Below are positions 16,935-29,286 of a stretch of 38,076 bases of DNA, in pieces (positions within the stretch are counted from its first letter, which is position 1; each line of letters opens with the position of its first letter). The position numbers and the translations under genes were made by a program. The DNA comes from a bacterium (lineage in GTDB: Bacteria; Patescibacteriota; Patescibacteriia; Patescibacteriales; GWC2-42-12). The notes below the pieces were generated by a model. It was not told where the DNA came from and did not search any database. It saw nothing but the letters and a program-made list of their open reading frames with translations. The stretch is from contig JAUSGE010000015.1 of the NCBI GenBank assembly GCA_030649205.1, forward strand, positions 1-38,076, written 5' to 3'.

Positions 16935-16963
16935 TTGACTAGTAGTTGATATTTTGTTATATT
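16935..16963 (+). promoter_or_regulatory. Promoter of the first MNT gene
   Basis: TTGACT (16935-16940), 17-base spacer, TATATT (16958-16963). The predicted start of transcription is about 6 bases from the ATG at 16976, so the message is nearly leaderless. Confidence 0.65.
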
Positions 16964-16975
16964 AAAATCACTTAT

Positions 16976-17305
16976 ATGAGCCGTGAAGAATTATTCAAAA
17001 AAGAAGTTAAAAAATCCGTGGCTAAAATAAAAAGCCAGTATCAGCCGGATAAGATTTACATTTTCGGCTCTTTTGCCAGCGGTAAAATAACGGTCGACAG
17101 CGACCTGGATTTTTTTATCATCAAGAAAACCGTTAAATCCAGGCGCGACCGCCAGCGCGAAGTGTCGCGTATCTTAATTGACCGCCAAGTGCCCATGGAC
17201 ATTTTGGTATTCACTCCGGCAGAAACGGAAAAAAGAAAAAATTTAGGCGATCAGTTTATTCTAAATATTTTAAATTTTGGGCGACTGGTTTATGCCAAAA
17301 AATAA
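16976..17305 (+). CDS. MNT-type nucleotidyltransferase (MntA-like antitoxin family)
   Basis: Minimal nucleotidyltransferase of 109 residues. It has the polymerase-beta-like motif GSFASG followed by SDLDFFII, and a third acidic residue in PMDILVF. In MNT/HEPN modules this protein AMPylates and inactivates the HEPN RNase partner. The ATG at 16976 fits the promoter; the in-frame ATG at 16946 lies between the -35 and -10 boxes. Its stop overlaps the start of a broken HEPN-like reading frame. With no intact toxin it is probably an orphan. Confidence 0.85.
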   Translation: MSREELFKKEVKKSVAKIKSQYQPDKIYIFGSFASGKITVDSDLDFFIIKKTVKSRRDRQREVSRILIDRQVPMDILVFTPAETEKRKNLGDQFILNILNFGRLVYAKK

Positions 17306-17406
17306 CAAAAAAATTTTGGCTCATGAATGGCTTAAAAAAAGAAGCTAAAGAAGCGCTGGCGGCCGCGGAAAGTATTGGCGAGTTTGTTTTAAATAAAATC
17401 TCATAA
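17292..17406 (+). pseudogene. Remnant of a HEPN-domain gene (frameshifted and truncated)
   Basis: An ATG at 17292, overlapping the end of the MNT gene, opens MPKNNKKILAHEWLKKRS and stops at 17348. A neighbouring frame (ATG 17323, stop 17404-17406) continues with GLKKEAKEALAAAES. Joined across the run of seven A (17334-17340), the two give HEWLKK then EAKEALAAAES, resembling the first helix of HEPN proteins, which usually follow MNT genes. The rest of the domain is absent: the direct repeat begins 12 bases later. A 27-codon functional peptide cannot be excluded. Confidence 0.5.
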
Positions 17407-20293: not shown

Positions 20294-22048
20294 ATGTCCC
20301 AAGAAAACAACCAAAAATTAGAGGCTATCCGCCATTCACTGTCCCATATCATGAGCATGGCGGTGGAAGAGCTGTATCCCAAGGTCGGACTGGGCGCGGG
20401 GCCGGCGATTGAGAACGGCTTTTATCAGGATTATGATTTTCCGGAAACGATCACGCCGGAAATTTTACCCAAGCTGGAAAAACGGATGAAAGAGATTTTA
20501 AAAGAGAACCTTGAGTTTGTTCAGCATGACGTGGACTATGACGAGGCTTACAAGTTCTACAAGCATGACCCGTATAAGACCGGCTTTATTGACGACCTAA
20601 AAGCGGCCGGCGAGAAAAAAGTCAGTTTCTATAAATCCGGCCGGTTTGATAATCTCTGCGCCGGACCGCATGTTGCTTCCACCAAAGAAATCAATCCCCA
20701 GGCGTTTAAATTGACAAAAATCGCCGGCGCTTACTGGCGGGGGAGCGAGAAAAATAAAATGCTGACTCGCATCTATGGCCTGGCTTTTGCCACCAAGCAA
20801 GAGCTGGATGAATATTTAAAGATGATGGCAGAAGCGGAGAAGCGCGATCATCGTAAGTTAGGTAAAGAGTTAGGGTTGTTTGTTTTCTCCGATTTGGTAG
20901 GTCCGGGGCTGCCGCTCTATACTTTTAAAGGCGCGATAATCAGGCGGGAAATAGTTAATTTTTCCAATGAACTTCAAAAAGCCATCGGCTACCAGGAAGT
21001 GCATACGCCCAATATGAATAAAGCTGAACTGTTTAAAGTGTCGGGCCATTATGAAAAATATAAAGAAGATATGTTTCGGGTGGTGTCCAATTACACTGAA
21101 GAAGAATATTTTCTTAAGCCTATGAACTGCCCCCAGCACACCCAGATTTACGCTTCTCAAATGAGAAGCTATCGGGATTTGCCGGTAAGGATCGCGGACT
21201 TCGCTAATCTTTATCGCGACGAAAAACCCGGTGAATTATCCGGGCTGACGCGCCTTCGATGTTTTTGCCAGGACGATGGCCATAGTTTTTGCCGCGAAGA
21301 CCAGATTAAAGATGAATTTTTATCAGTTCTGTCCGCGATTAATAAGGCCATGAAAGTCTATGGCATGAATTACAAAGTCAGGCTGTCGCTTTGGGATCCC
21401 GAACAGCCGGAAAAATATTTGGGCGAAGTTTCTATTTGGGAAAAATCCCAGAAACTACTTGAAGATATTTTAGTTGACAATAAAATTGATTATTACCGGG
21501 CGGTTGGCGAGGCCGCGATTTACGGCCCGAAAATGGATTTGATTTCCAAGGATTCATTGGGCCGCGAATGGCAAATCTCCACGATTCAGCTTGATTTTAT
21601 CATGCCCCAAAGGTTTAATTTGACTTATATTGACGAGTCTGGCAAACAAAAAACACCAGTCATGGTTCACCGGGCAATCGTCGGTTCACCGGAACGGTTT
21701 CTAGGAATTTTAATTGAGCATTACGCCGGCGCGTTTCCGGTCTGGCTGTCGCCGGTTCAGGTAAAAATTGTTTCCGTGGCCGAGGCGCACGCGGAATTTA
21801 GCCAGGAACTGGCAGATGAGTTTAAACAAAATGATATTAGAGTGGAAGTTGATGACAGCGATGAAACCGTGGGCAATAAAATTAGAAAAGCCGTGGCCGA
21901 GAAAGTGCCGTACATGCTGGTGATCGGCGATCGGGAGATGTCGTCTGACAAATTAGCCGTGCGGGACAGGGGAGAAAAAACGACTCGGGAAATCGGCAAA
22001 CAGGAATTTATGCAAGAAGTGAAGGAGAAAGTAAGAAGCAAGAAGTAA
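20294..22048 (+). CDS. thrS: Threonyl-tRNA synthetase without TGS domain
   Basis: Charges tRNA-Thr. At 584 residues it is shorter than the roughly 640-residue E. coli enzyme because the N-terminal TGS domain is missing: it starts directly with the editing domain, whose HSLSH (14-18) and CAGPH (122-126) supply the metal-type editing motifs. The class II core follows, with KPMNCPQH (zinc Cys and motif region), motif 2 FANLYRDE...LTRLRCFCQDDGHSFC, motif 3 VGSPERFLGILIE, and a C-terminal anticodon-binding domain. No Shine-Dalgarno is seen. Expression is controlled by the upstream T-box. Confidence 0.96.
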   Translation: MSQENNQKLEAIRHSLSHIMSMAVEELYPKVGLGAGPAIENGFYQDYDFPETITPEILPKLEKRMKEILKENLEFVQHDVDYDEAYKFYKHDPYKTGFIDDLKAAGEKKVSFYKSGRFDNLCAGPHVASTKEINPQAFKLTKIAGAYWRGSEKNKMLTRIYGLAFATKQELDEYLKMMAEAEKRDHRKLGKELGLFVFSDLVGPGLPLYTFKGAIIRREIVNFSNELQKAIGYQEVHTPNMNKAELFKVSGHYEKYKEDMFRVVSNYTEEEYFLKPMNCPQHTQIYASQMRSYRDLPVRIADFANLYRDEKPGELSGLTRLRCFCQDDGHSFCREDQIKDEFLSVLSAINKAMKVYGMNYKVRLSLWDPEQPEKYLGEVSIWEKSQKLLEDILVDNKIDYYRAVGEAAIYGPKMDLISKDSLGREWQISTIQLDFIMPQRFNLTYIDESGKQKTPVMVHRAIVGSPERFLGILIEHYAGAFPVWLSPVQVKIVSVAEAHAEFSQELADEFKQNDIRVEVDDSDETVGNKIRKAVAEKVPYMLVIGDREMSSDKLAVRDRGEKTTREIGKQEFMQEVKEKVRSKK

Positions 22049-22056
22049 AACTTTAT

Positions 22057-22449
22057 TTAAGCATTCTTAACGTATTCCGCCCGCATTTTAAACAGGGGTT
22101 TGGCTTCAATATATCGCATGAAGGCGTAAATTTGAAATTTATCAAAGCTTTGCGGCGTAAATTCGGTAATTAAAATTCCCTTGTCGGCCACTTCTTTCAT
22201 TAGCAGGGGCCCGGCATGGCTCATATTGACCAGATCTATTTTTTTTATCTTTAGGGTTGTGGCCAGTTTTTCCGTTAAAAATATTTCCTCGCCGTAATCT
22301 ACGTCAATTTTAGAGCTGTAGGCGATGTCGTAATCGCTGTCCGGCCTGGCCGTTTGGTCCGCCCGCGAACCAAATAAAACCAGATAGTTAAGCCGGTATT
22401 CTTTAGCTATTTTTTTCAGTTCTTTGATTGGCGGCTTGATATTATTCAT
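22057..22449 (-). CDS. MNT-type nucleotidyltransferase, second copy
   Basis: A 130-residue minimal nucleotidyltransferase with LFGSRA...RPDSDYDIAYSS and the third acidic position in KIDLVNMS. This type typically accompanies HepT (a HEPN RNase) and neutralises it by AMPylation. Its ATG overlaps by 8 bases the end of a 28-codon HepT-like remnant, so the toxin gene has lost most of its length. It converges with thrS, with 8 bases between stops. It differs clearly in sequence from the first MNT gene, so the two are not a recent duplication. Confidence 0.85.
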   Translation of the reverse strand: MNNIKPPIKELKKIAKEYRLNYLVLFGSRADQTARPDSDYDIAYSSKIDVDYGEEIFLTEKLATTLKIKKIDLVNMSHAGPLLMKEVADKGILITEFTPQSFDKFQIYAFMRYIEAKPLFKMRAEYVKNA

Positions 22450-22528
22450 AGTTTAAAAGAGGCTTCAGTTCTTTAATGTAGCCGATAATATTGCTAAGTT
22501 TGCTATTGACGATGTCCTTGTTAATCAT
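22442..22528 (-). pseudogene. Truncated HepT-like (DUF86/HEPN) remnant, 28 codons
   Basis: A short frame starting MINKDIVNSKLSNIIGYIKE and ending LLNYE looks like the first helix of a HepT protein, normally about 110-145 residues with an RNase motif near the C-terminus, which is missing. It lies directly upstream of, and overlapping, the MNT gene, the usual order hepT-mntA. A TATGAT/ATTATA-like -10 lies immediately upstream, suggesting a leaderless start. It could be a functional small peptide, but a deletion remnant is more likely. Confidence 0.5.
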
Positions 22529-22590
22529 GGTATAATCATAACATAAATGGCAGTTTTTGCAACAAAATTCGGCATAATGAAAATAAAATA

Positions 22591-22623
22591 AAAAAATCAG
22601 GAGAAGGCCGAGACCTTCCCCTG
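22591..22623 (-). terminator. Terminator after the lipoprotein gene
   Basis: CAGG-GAAGG and CCTTC-CCTG arms at 22598-22623. On the minus strand it is followed by ATTTTTTTA. Confidence 0.75.
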
Positions 22624-22641
22624 TTAGATTGTTGTTAAAAT

Positions 22642-23814
22642 TTATTTTTTTGCCAATTCATCTTTGACGGTCTGTCTAACCGTTTCAAACACCACCTGGC
22701 CGCGCCTTTGCCAAAAAAGGCGGACTTGCACATCTCTAAAACTGAGATTTGCAAAAAATGGACTTCGCTTGTCGCCGTTAATGCTGACAACTCTGCTCCA
22801 GTTGTCATACCAGCGAGGGTCCACAATCGTGATGTCTTTTTTCCAGTCCAAAGATAATAGATAACGACTCAGCAGGCCGGTGTCTACCATTTCGGCAACC
22901 AATTTAGCCAGCGGTTTGGCCAGCTCCAGTAGGTTCGTTACCCCGTCTCCCGGTGCTTCATCAACCCACTCGGCTAGGTCGCGATACTGGATAATGGTAT
23001 TTACGAAGGCCGTGTACAGCGTTGCGCTGTCGGGAGTAATTAACCCGGCTTTTCGAGTGGCGACGATAGTGTTCACCAGCTTGTTTATTTTAGTCGTGAA
23101 CTCATTTATGCCCTTGTCCGATTCTTTGAGCAGAGCGGAACTGGGCAAGGGGTTAGCGTATCTGGCCATGATTTTACCATTCGCTACTCTAACCAATTCC
23201 CAATCCCCGTTCGTTCTTAAATGATCCGGTGGCGCGTCGTAGTCTATCCAGAAAGGAGACTCAATCAGCGCCTTAATAGTATCGCCTTTAAATAATTCAG
23301 TCACCTCTGAAGGGAAGATGCCATTCTCGGCGGTTATGTTAGTTGTCGCCCACCAGTCTCCGCAGATCCGCTCAAAACCTTGCTCCTGGATTCTATAATG
23401 CGACGGCGAATCGCTAATTTTTTCCGGGTCAATTTTGTACCAGCACTCATCAATGTCTTTGAACGCGTATTGAGCTCTGCTAAAAAGATTAATGCTGGCT
23501 TCAAAAATGTACACAACAGGTCCGGCCTCTGACGGAATTTTTTCCGCAGTCATCAGCTTTTTATTTGACGTTATGTTATAAACGTCAAATTCCATGGGAC
23601 TGGAGAAAATCACAAATCCAGGTTTTAAATTTTTTATACTATTTTCCAGAGACGGTTTAGTCTCCGGTGCGGCGGCTGGCGCCGGTTGAACTTGGACAAC
23701 TGACGGATTTTGCGGCTGAGGGCCGTTACTGCATGAGATTGCTGTAAAGACGAGTCCAAAAAAACAGAAAAGTGCAAAAACAAAAGTCATTCCGCGCTTC
23801 AGTAAATTAAACAT
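22642..23814 (-). CDS. Lipoprotein of unknown function (390 residues)
   Basis: An N-terminal signal segment ends in a lipobox, AISC with Cys28, so the protein is probably lipid-anchored at the outer face of the membrane. A Pro/Ala-rich linker (about 33-55) follows, then a large soluble domain with several Trp-rich segments (DECWYKID, ICGDWWATT, DPRWYDNWSRV). I recognise no family. AAGGAGAAG lies before the ATG, and the gene is a single transcription unit closed by its own terminator. The region 23815-24013 upstream shows no clear promoter for it. Confidence 0.75.
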   Translation of the reverse strand: MFNLLKRGMTFVFALFCFFGLVFTAISCSNGPQPQNPSVVQVQPAPAAAPETKPSLENSIKNLKPGFVIFSSPMEFDVYNITSNKKLMTAEKIPSEAGPVVYIFEASINLFSRAQYAFKDIDECWYKIDPEKISDSPSHYRIQEQGFERICGDWWATTNITAENGIFPSEVTELFKGDTIKALIESPFWIDYDAPPDHLRTNGDWELVRVANGKIMARYANPLPSSALLKESDKGINEFTTKINKLVNTIVATRKAGLITPDSATLYTAFVNTIIQYRDLAEWVDEAPGDGVTNLLELAKPLAKLVAEMVDTGLLSRYLLSLDWKKDITIVDPRWYDNWSRVVSINGDKRSPFFANLSFRDVQVRLFWQRRGQVVFETVRQTVKDELAKK

Positions 23815-25953: not shown

Positions 25954-28900
25954 TCAGATATCTAAATTGGTAACTTTTTTGGCGTGCGTCTGGATAAAAT
26001 GCTTGCGCGGGGCCACGTCGCCGCCCATGAGCATTTCAAAAGTTTCATTGGCTAGCGCCGCGTCATCAACATTAACCTGCCTCATGATTCTGGTTTGCGG
26101 ATTCATGGTGGTATCCCAAAGCTGTACCGGATTCATTTCGCCCAAACCTTTATAGCGCTGGATGTTTATTCTAATGGCGGCCTTAGCCTTAGTTACTTTA
26201 ATTTCTTCTTCAGTTTGATTTTCTTCGGCCAACTCTTCGTCGCTGGCCTCGGTTTCAATTACTTCGGCTTGGCCGCCGCCGAACTCTTTAATGATTTTAA
26301 CTTTTTCTTCATCCGAGTAAGCGTATTTAACGGCCGCGCCTTTTTTAATTTGATAGAGCGGAGGCTGGGCGATATATAAATTGCCGTTAGTTACCAGGGC
26401 GTTGAAATGCCGGTAAAATAAAGTGAGCAGGAGAGTGCGGATGTGCGCGCCGTCAACGTCGGCATCAGTCATAATAATAATCCGGTGGTAGCGCAGTTTG
26501 CCCAGGTCAAACTGCTCGTCAATATTGGCGCCTAGGGCGATGACTAAATTTTTAATTTCATTATTGGCCAGCATTTTATCCAGCCGCGCCCGCTCCACGT
26601 TTAAAATTTTGCCGCGCAAAGGCAGAATGGCCTGGAATTTCCGGTCGCGGCCCTGCTTGGCGCTGTTATGCACGAAGACTCCGCTGGCCAGCGCGAAATT
26701 GTGGGTTCCCGGCACTTCTAAGTCATAAACATCCATTCTTTCTTTGAGTTTCACAATTTTTTTGATTTTATGGTTGTAGTTTTCCACCGCTTCAATCAGC
26801 CTTTTATTGTCGCCATGGAAGAATCTCGCCAGAATTGTATTTGTTTTTAGCAGGCTTTTATCATTTGTTTCGCGCCTAAAATCCTCGTAGGCCGGCAAAT
26901 TAACCTGTCCGCGGTTTTCATAAATCTGGCGCAAAGTATTTAACGCTTTATTCAAATAGGTTTTATTATAAGCAATTTTCCTTTTTTTTCTGAATTCGTC
27001 CGTCCATTGTTTTTTTGTCTCTTCACTTCGCCATTCGCGCAAAGCGGCATCTTGCCATTCTTTTTCCGCCAGATTTTTAAGGAGTTTTTTGGCTTCAGGA
27101 TTTTTTTTAAAGTATTGTCTAACTCTTTCAGCTTGCGCTTGCTTGTTTGCCGGATTACCCCAATACTTTTTTTGAACTTCATTTAATAGTTTGTTATTTT
27201 TTTGCCGGTAATCAGCGTTGCTATTATAAAATTCTAAAAATTTTTGCGTCATGAATTTTTTGTAGGTTTCGTCCTGCCATTGCTTCTTCGCGTTTTGACT
27301 AAACAATTCTCTTTTTTCTAGACTTTTCATGCTGGCTTTGCGTCTAAATTCGTCTGTCTGTTTTGTCTCAATACTTTTTTTTATCGCATCGGGGCGATGA
27401 AGCGTATGCTCTAAATGCTTGTAATGAATAATCATGTGCTGGCCATAAGGAAGGCGACTGATGTTAGTTGGATTATTATTGCGCTTATTAAAATCAATAT
27501 GATGCCGATGCTTTCCGGCAGAAGCCGTATAAACACCATTTGCCAGGTTGTATATATCGGATAATACATGAGTATAGTTCCATTTTTTGGCCTTAGGATC
27601 AAAAATCATTTCATAACCATCTAAAGTTCTCTGGCCTTCTTTTTTAGATATTTTTCGGTATAACGGGGCAAGACTGTAATGGGGAGTTAATTGAGCCGCT
27701 GGAATATAGTTTCCATCAATTAATCTAAATTTATGATCAGGCGTGCATATCAGTTTCTCGTTGTTGTCTAAAATAATTTCAATAACTTCAGCATCCCGTT
27801 TTGTCATTCGCGGATTAATTATTGGAGCAACTCCGATATGACCGTTGTCACAGATTGTGTAACAAAAATTTTTCTTCCCCTGTTTATGTTCTTTAACTAG
27901 TTGTTTAAAGGAAATTTCTCTACCATCAATTAAAGCAACTTTTGTATTTCCACACCAACAGCCTCCGGCGCTGTCGCCCTCTACGATGTACAATTCGCTT
28001 TCTTCCGGCTTGCGGGACGAGCAATCGGCTAATTTACCCGGCAAAGTCATGCCTTCCAGCGCGCCCTTGCGCAAGATGGAAGCGCGCGCGGTTCGGGCCG
28101 CGATTCTGGCCTGGGCTGACAACAGGCACTTGGCCACGATAGCTTCGGCTTGGCGCGGATTTTCTTGAAGGAAAGAGGCGAAGCTGTCGCCAAAAGTTTG
28201 CTCTACGTAAGTCTTGATGTCGGAATTTCCCAATTTGCCCTTGGTCTGGCCTTCAAATTGCGGGTTGGTCAGTTTAACGCTGATTATAACGGTTAAACCT
28301 TCGCGCACATCTTCGCCGGTCAGATTCTCGTCTTTTTCCTTGATAAAATTTTGCGCTCGCGCGTAGCTGTTCAGGGTTCTGGTGAGCGCCGTCCTAAAGC
28401 CGGCCACGTGCGTGCCGCCTTCGGGGTTGATGATATTGTTGGCGAACGCCAAAACAGTTTCATTATAGCCGTCGTTATACTGTAAAGCCACTTCCACGCG
28501 CGAGTCATTGATTTCTTTGTCAACATAAAAGATAGTTTCATTTTTGACCTGCGCCGAGCGGTTTAATGATTTAACATAGGCTTTGATGCCGCCTTCAAAA
28601 TAAAATTTGTAATTTTTCCGGCTGTGATTTTTTCGGCGGTCGGCCACCTTGATGGTAATGCCCTTGGTTAAATAAGCCTGCTGCCTTAAGCGGTCTAAAA
28701 TCGCGCCCCAGTTGAATTCCAAAGTTTCAAAAATTGCCGCGTCCGGCTTAAAAGTTATTATAGTGCAGGTTTTTTTGGAATTGCCCACTGGTTTGACTTT
28801 TTTTATCGGAATACCGCGCTTATATTCTTGCATCCAGATTTTGCCTTCGCGGTGCACTTCGGCTTTTAAATATTCGCTTAAAGCGTTAACTACCGAAACG

Positions 28901-29286
28901 CCCACGCCGTGCAAGCCGCCGGAAACTTTATAGCCGCCGCCGTCGCCGAATTTTCCGCCGGCGTGCAGTTTAGTCAGCACTAATTCCAAGGCCGAAATTT
29001 TAGCCTGTTTATGAATCCCGACCGGAATGCCGCGGCCGTTATCGATGACTTCCACCAGGCCGTTGTCTAAAAGCGTTACGCTGATTTCCGTGGCAAAGCC
29101 GGCCATGGCCTCGTCAATGCCGTTATCAACCACTTCCCAAATTAAATGATGCAGGCCGGCCGCGGCCGTGGAACCGATATACATGCCCGGCCTTTTTCTG
29201 ACCGGTTCCAGCCCTTCCAGTACGGTGATGGACTCGGCGCCGTAATCCGAGCCGGCTGATTTTTTACTTATTTTTTTGTCTGCCAT
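25954..29286 (-). CDS. gyrB: DNA gyrase subunit B interrupted by an intein
   Basis: ATPase subunit of gyrase. The 1110-residue precursor has the GHKL ATPase part (RKRPGMYIGS, EVVDNGIDEA, DNGRGIPV, GGLHGVGVSVVNALS), a transducer region, and a TOPRIM domain with EGDSAGG (436-442) and MTDADVDGAHIRTLLLTLF. The intein occupies residues 443-874, directly after EGDSAGG, and SAKQGRDR resumes at 875. After splicing the protein would be 678 residues. No Shine-Dalgarno precedes the ATG. The partner gyrA is not in the window. Splicing is needed for activity, since the insertion sits in the metal-binding TOPRIM motif. Confidence 0.96.
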   Translation of the reverse strand: MADKKISKKSAGSDYGAESITVLEGLEPVRKRPGMYIGSTAAAGLHHLIWEVVDNGIDEAMAGFATEISVTLLDNGLVEVIDNGRGIPVGIHKQAKISALELVLTKLHAGGKFGDGGGYKVSGGLHGVGVSVVNALSEYLKAEVHREGKIWMQEYKRGIPIKKVKPVGNSKKTCTIITFKPDAAIFETLEFNWGAILDRLRQQAYLTKGITIKVADRRKNHSRKNYKFYFEGGIKAYVKSLNRSAQVKNETIFYVDKEINDSRVEVALQYNDGYNETVLAFANNIINPEGGTHVAGFRTALTRTLNSYARAQNFIKEKDENLTGEDVREGLTVIISVKLTNPQFEGQTKGKLGNSDIKTYVEQTFGDSFASFLQENPRQAEAIVAKCLLSAQARIAARTARASILRKGALEGMTLPGKLADCSSRKPEESELYIVEGDSAGGCWCGNTKVALIDGREISFKQLVKEHKQGKKNFCYTICDNGHIGVAPIINPRMTKRDAEVIEIILDNNEKLICTPDHKFRLIDGNYIPAAQLTPHYSLAPLYRKISKKEGQRTLDGYEMIFDPKAKKWNYTHVLSDIYNLANGVYTASAGKHRHHIDFNKRNNNPTNISRLPYGQHMIIHYKHLEHTLHRPDAIKKSIETKQTDEFRRKASMKSLEKRELFSQNAKKQWQDETYKKFMTQKFLEFYNSNADYRQKNNKLLNEVQKKYWGNPANKQAQAERVRQYFKKNPEAKKLLKNLAEKEWQDAALREWRSEETKKQWTDEFRKKRKIAYNKTYLNKALNTLRQIYENRGQVNLPAYEDFRRETNDKSLLKTNTILARFFHGDNKRLIEAVENYNHKIKKIVKLKERMDVYDLEVPGTHNFALASGVFVHNSAKQGRDRKFQAILPLRGKILNVERARLDKMLANNEIKNLVIALGANIDEQFDLGKLRYHRIIIMTDADVDGAHIRTLLLTLFYRHFNALVTNGNLYIAQPPLYQIKKGAAVKYAYSDEEKVKIIKEFGGGQAEVIETEASDEELAEENQTEEEIKVTKAKAAIRINIQRYKGLGEMNPVQLWDTTMNPQTRIMRQVNVDDAALANETFEMLMGGDVAPRKHFIQTHAKKVTNLDI
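26665..27960 (-). mobile_element. GyrB intein with HNH homing endonuclease (432 residues)
   Basis: It begins with Cys (CWCGNTKVALIDG, splicing block A), has the block B ICTPDHKFRL with the expected His, and ends DVYDLEVPGTHNF (block F) and GVFVHN with terminal His-Asn; the following extein residue is Ser. All splicing residues look intact. The middle holds an HNH-type nuclease stretch, HRHHIDFNKRNNNPTNISRL and a following HMIIHYKH, then a long basic helical region in which Trp recurs in similar contexts (QWQDE, YWGNP, EWQDA, EWRSE, QWTDE), likely a DNA-binding repeat. The DNA looks more A+T-rich than the flanking gyrB, consistent with mobility. Confidence 0.93.

Follow-up and report, generated by a model that had tools for sequence, protein, structure and literature searches.

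The window, by which we mean the whole stretch of 38,076 nt analysed here, very probably contains a decayed type VII (HepT/MntA) toxin-antitoxin locus, in which an MntA gene remains whole beside the severed start of a HepT toxin gene. As judged from its sequence, this MntA has the residues that transfer AMP in studied relatives, and one-sided losses recur at other MNT loci of the same genome and of the phylum. At several of those loci the HEPN gene has been disrupted by an internal deletion, a frame change or a stop, with one end or both still present. The locus type is already known; the point of interest is the repeated one-sided loss. Orphan antitoxins are usually recorded as bare absences, whereas here the dead toxin can still be read beside the antitoxin, so that the direction (toxin first) and the form of the loss become countable. 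Readable remnants stand at three of the 13 MNT loci of one 1.2-Mb genome, with more loci in its relatives, and protection from foreign HepT modules by a retained MntA becomes a testable question.

A sequence-only reading of the window had described an MNT gene and, sharing 8 bases with its start (ATGAATAA), a 28-codon frame with a HepT-like N-terminus; both frames were recovered at exactly the positions it gave (Table 1).

Table 1. Features of the two MNT loci of the window.
Feature	Position	Strand	Details
MntA-type nucleotidyltransferase, intact, type VII antitoxin family	22057-22449	-	130 aa, ATG start, GSX10DXD present
HepT (HEPN RNase) N-terminal stub, 27 residues	22442-22528	-	28-codon frame, ATG start
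Promoter-like TTGCAA-16-TATGAT, TG before second hexamer	22535-22562	-	ends 6 bases before stub ATG
Terminator-like hairpin	22598-22623	-	after upstream gene 22642-23814; 1 found, 0.8 expected by chance
Second MNT, unrelated	16979-17305	+	108 aa from ATG; 119 aa from a TTG at 16946
HEPN N-terminal remnant, PF05168-type, 18 codons	17292-17348	+	by eye; weak alone, E 0.35
HEPN C-terminal remnant, 27-codon frame	17323-17406	+	E 1.8e-4, ranked first among 470 window ORFs; reached by 0 of 1,000 shuffles

The first of these MNT genes was assigned to the MntA family by an NCBIfam profile search (NF047752, 77.6 bits, above the cut-off of 60), and it also matched Pfam Polbeta (2.4e-16). Its best solved relatives were PDB 7ae2_B (E 1.4e-7, residues 11-129) and 5yep_A (E 8e-4). 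Residues G27, S28, S38, D39 and D41 were invariant in a 14-row alignment, in agreement with the GSX10DXD motif as PMC7641770 defines it for MntA. Both MNT proteins of the window matched PADLOC candidate-defence models PDC-S09 (1e-9 and 1.6e-7), which carry no description. The 3' end of the MntA gene lies 8 bases from a convergent gene (20294-22048), with no HepT between them, and the only HepT sequence adjoining it comprises residues 1-27, without RX4HXY; this MntA is an orphan antitoxin in that no intact toxin is adjacent. The window's contig (C30) belongs to a 1.22-Mb draft genome that is 97.7% complete. No close orthologue of the MntA was found in the genus (own genome only), the family (13), the phylum draw (379) or the contig collection (59 loci), and its nearest relative in the genome draws was 41% identical, or 37-38% over longer alignments with that same relative. 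Elsewhere in the window, a GyrB-like gene (25954-29286, 1,110 codons) contains a long insert that resembles an intein by eye.

We built a profile from 33 intact HepT sequences, almost all of them taken from related genomes, and compared it with all 470 window ORFs of at least 20 codons. The 28-codon frame ranked first (E 9.5e-5; runner-up 0.24), aligning start to start with the profile over positions 3-29. Its score of 15.3 bits was reached by none of 1,000 dinucleotide shuffles of 22436-22641 searched in six frames, whose maximum was 6.0. Likewise, against the N-termini of intact HepT proteins its best BLOSUM score was 76, as compared with a maximum of 50 in 2,000 residue shuffles, and the closest HepT start, that of L105, shared 14 of the 27 residues without gaps. 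The 28-mer alone had no Pfam or NCBIfam match. The HepT N-termini most like the stub were those of L105, L092, L024, L022 and L109, and the window MNT fell within a 10-member clade (SH-aLRT 94) with the MNT partners of the same five, in a tree of 75 MntA proteins that rests on few columns, where the window row is long-branched and no branch of at least 95 contains it. Since the clade of the MNT holds the partners of the HepT N-termini that best match the stub, stub and MNT look cognate, and most likely they are.

These comparisons leave hardly any probability to a chance ORF beside an MNT that was always solitary. The stub is indeed short, it lies on the side of the MNT where no HepT is expected, and contig C20 of the same genome has a solitary MntA without a remnant, as such a reading would have it. 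Against it stand, however, the first rank among the ORFs, the failure of either shuffle test to reach the stub's score, and the exact adjoining of stub and MntA, together with a best match to a HepT of that very MntA's clade.

What follows the N-terminus in a working toxin is gone. HepT depends on its RX4H to cleave RNA, and MntA transfers AMP to the tyrosine of RX4HXY, as described in PMC7641770. This motif was carried by all 33 HepT proteins of the profile set, at a position far beyond the end of the stub, and no further HepT piece was found among the 470 window ORFs, none of the others falling below E 0.24. Lacking both the RNase motif and the AMP-accepting tyrosine, the stub cannot work as a HepT toxin. 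The sequence-only reading was therefore right that the frame starts as a HepT does and that the RNase part has been lost.

That reading had also named the finding that would speak for a real small protein, namely conservation of the frame at this length in many genomes. We tested the 226 small ORFs that precede the MntA genes of 75 loci and found a HepT-like frame at a single locus, that of the window (E 4.6e-5, next 0.66), no close relative of the window MNT being among the 75. This absence from every other locus makes it very improbable that the frame encodes a small protein with a function of its own, such as a HepT helix retained for binding or regulating MntA, even though it is open, starts shortly behind a promoter-like site and overlaps MntA in the manner of a coupled leader. 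HepT genes shortened in frame also stand next to MNT elsewhere, with 49 codons in G002 and about 50 on contig C17 of the same genome and in G094, and would fit such a protein; other relics (window 17292-17406, G412 and G416), in contrast, have HEPN ends in different frames, which looks like decay.

Six promoter-like sites were found in the stretch searched, as compared with 1.8 expected by chance. A near-leaderless start at the stub from the site in Table 1 is possible and, since a terminator-like hairpin follows the upstream gene, the relic is probably a separate transcription unit, sites of both kinds being common by chance. In a decayed locus, the stub would be a non-functional relic that, if transcribed from the promoter-like site, would act only as a short translated leader, and the overlap of its stop codon with the MntA start may couple the two. 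A programmed frameshift from the stub into MNT through the in-frame TTTAAAC was considered and rejected: a -1 shift hits a TGA at once, and MNT lies in the other frame.

The order of the genes was unexpected, a point missed by the sequence-only reading. In the window the stub precedes MNT, unlike the MNT-then-HepT order of type VII loci, which we found in all 83 intact pairs (55 of 55 MntA in the class and 28 of 28 elsewhere in the phylum) and in five of the five plasmid records examined. No HepT-first intact pair appeared in the genome draws of this phylum or in those five records. A stub ahead of MNT thus takes more than a single simple deletion from a normal pair, and calls for either the collapse of a tandem array or some rearrangement. 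As a special form of the decay explanation, we tentatively consider that a tandem MNT-HepT-MNT-HepT array collapsed, the HepT of the first pair being cut to its start and the MNT of the second pair being kept; we hold this to be possible rather than probable. It would account for the odd order, and tandem MNT/HepT arrays do exist in the class (G576 contig C66, with the second MNT 18 bases after HepT). However, it demands several deletions, and neither flank keeps the expected trace: a profile search of 22450-22660 found nothing above chance for a first MNT upstream of the stub, and downstream of MNT the convergent gene follows with no HepT. An assembly error at the locus is also possible. In the G576 array (L095), three MNT genes and two HepT genes stand side by side and internal stops interrupt the second HepT; arrays of this type are a possible source of odd gene orders.

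The window contains a second MNT locus 5 kb away, which according to the sequence-only reading is unrelated to the first and has likewise lost its HEPN partner. Its protein matched Pfam NTP_transf_2 (2.2e-10) and obtained 26.4 bits in the MntA search, under the cut-off. Of 285 class genomes, 20 contained a match at E 1e-8, one of them being its own genome, and the best other relative, 59% identical, was in G554, where a HEPN gene (PF05168, 103.9 bits) comes after MNT with a 14-base overlap. In the window, a HEPN-like N-terminal frame overlaps the end of the second MNT by the same 14 bases, and a C-terminal frame follows (Table 1), indicating that the middle was deleted and that the two ends now lie in different frames. 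The loss of the partner was therefore borne out, with an N-terminal piece that the sequence-only reading had overlooked. The two loci are indeed unrelated in the sense intended there, because relatives of the second MNT pair with PF05168 HEPN proteins and those of the window MntA with PF01934 HepT-like proteins. Among the relatives of the second MNT, 18 of 20 other loci were readable (two had no MNT frame): a full-length HEPN-like gene followed MNT in 10 by eye, a shortened or altered one in two (L188 and L200), and none was listed in six.

The genome as a whole contains 13 MNT genes, found with two profiles, and six of them have no intact HEPN. Three of these six stand beside a remnant (C17 and both loci of C30), and no HEPN partner was found with the profiles used for the other three (C20, C37 and C24:40721). 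For six further genes the profiles identify a partner that is intact or fused to the MNT (C7, C11, C39, which is fused, C24:7900, C49 and C35). The last, C24:5578, has a 134-aa neighbour that has no HEPN assignment in Pfam and looks HEPN-like by eye, and was counted neither way; at this locus (L012 1240-2186), the MNT has an N-terminal helix-turn-helix-like part. The solitary MntA on C20 (L006 1468-1884), which had no detectable HepT remnant, ends 5 bases before a gene that is GatC-like by eye. On C17 (locus L004 1462-1650), as on contig C18 of G094 (locus L269), a HepT shortened in frame to about 50 codons lies beside MNT, with a short start joined to a C-terminal part that retains RX4HXY. 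Intact HEPN genes elsewhere that the MNT proteins could modify had been suggested as a check, and intact HepT genes do occur, on C7, C11 and C39, each adjoining or fused to an MNT of its own. The genome has seven PF01934 and PF05168 matches, every one of them adjoining an MNT gene or forming part of one.

We then counted intact partners across the class and the phylum. HepT was called intact when PF01934 matched at least 90 of its 120 positions without an internal stop, a sequence criterion rather than tested toxicity. The class sample (380 genomes) gave 64 MNT genes over the MntA cut-off, the MNT matches considered reaching down to about 44 bits. Family searches found a full HepT downstream of 55 of these, a partial one at two and none at seven; with two loci near contig ends set aside (G503:C7 and G359:C5), 55 of 62 assessable MntA have an intact HepT. 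A 46-codon frame after the MNT of G359:C5 is HepT-like by eye and has no profile match. The phylum draw (262 genomes) added 35 MntA, reduced to 34 by setting aside G080:C61, whose HepT runs off the contig. There, 28 of 34 have an intact HepT, once the partial HepT of G077:C5 was recounted as intact and that of G251:C7, divided by a stop into 73- and 60-codon frames, as broken.

Together, an intact HepT accompanies 83 of the 96 assessable MntA and is missing from the other 13, but this MNT set leans to intact genes since it was chosen by score. The window locus, with its N-terminal stub, is one of the 13. In G437 and G188 the HepT sequence is distributed over two frames and in G251 it is divided by the stop, and no remnant was found at C20, G062, G065 or G089. 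In G416 only the C-terminal part of HepT is left, a start in a different frame being seen by eye only; weak HepT ends follow MNT at G412:C23 (E 0.018) and G359:C17 (E 0.0093), and at G309:C17 and G016:C48 the ends were recognised only by eye. Outside the count of 96, a genome of the same family (G002) has a 49-codon HepT that preserves both ends in frame.

For the reverse loss, we took the 113 best-scoring HepT rows of the class, 109 of them full length. This number includes three that carry an internal stop, and G552:C41 and G359:C3 (contig edges) and G540:C65 (a C-terminal MNT piece beside N bases) were set aside. None of the 106 assessable full-length HepT was without an MNT match, 103 being listed and three found with a custom MNT profile, although a match does not prove that the MNT is intact. 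This HepT-side comparison is the fairer test, the MNT and HepT sets not being matched by subtype. As separate observations, L171 1116-1325 (G503 contig C8) is a HepT remnant with no MNT directly beside it, in which by eye about 27 N-terminal residues are joined in frame to the C-terminal part. In L146 (G309 contig C17), a gene of the fused MNT-HEPN type, the HEPN middle is seemingly lost and the C-terminus lies in another frame, again by eye.

On the MNT tree, the 14 loss rows need at least 11 changes, and well-supported branches force only three of them, indicating that several independent HepT losses are likely, though not proven. The loss label was slightly clustered, 35 of 500 shuffles being as low. 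Before G251 was added, with 13 loss rows, the tree gave 10 changes, two forced, and 20 of 500 shuffles as low.

The repeated loss of the toxin beside an intact antitoxin, proposed in the sequence-only reading, was thus upheld by the counts (13 of 96 as compared with 0 of 106). That the retention of the antitoxin is selective we can only infer, because the searches gave no orthologue close enough to test for selection. MntA may persist as a spare antitoxin that modifies other HepT proteins, resident or incoming; alternatively, the loss of a harmless half may not be urgent. At present the window MntA may neutralise other HepT, regulate, or merely linger. A wider proposal would be that HEPN toxins of this phylum are repeatedly inactivated, in many cases through internal deletion, and the MNT kept by selection as an orphan-antitoxin immunity to incoming HepT/MntA, with the short HepT proteins of C17 and G094 that bear RX4HXY as decoys; we regard it as unlikely.

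Among known systems, the two-gene MNT-HEPN (PF05168) modules are the model for the second locus; they are intact in G554, whereas the window HEPN has lost its middle and changes frame between its ends. For the window MntA, the best solved relative is the MNT of the 7ae2 HEPN-MNT pair (chain 'MNT antitoxin'), presumably solved as the antitoxin together with its partner family; unlike in that pair, the toxin has been lost in the window.

The HepT/MntA system of Shewanella oneidensis (SO_3166/SO_3165) resembles the window locus in its MntA family, its GSX10DXD motif and the homology of the stub to HepT N-termini. It differs in that the window HepT lacks everything past residue 27, RX4HXY included, and in order, SO_3165 (MntA) lying upstream of SO_3166 (HepT) whereas the window stub precedes MNT. 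Shewanella MntA is reported in PMC4621449 to bind and repress its own promoter.

None of the best-ranked literature matches, taken by titles and abstract starts and covering few subscription journals, was a study of HEPN decay in this phylum. Orphan antitoxins have been described in other bacteria, with further work in PMC2701414. In Klebsiella pneumoniae, as PMC7192599 presents it, orphan antitoxins without a working toxin are abundant, and degraded pairs and anti-addiction roles have been proposed. Those orphans were recognised, within a single species complex, by their identity to antitoxins already known (PMC7192599), whereas in the window the antitoxin, which is an enzyme, has toxin remnants that can still be read next to it.
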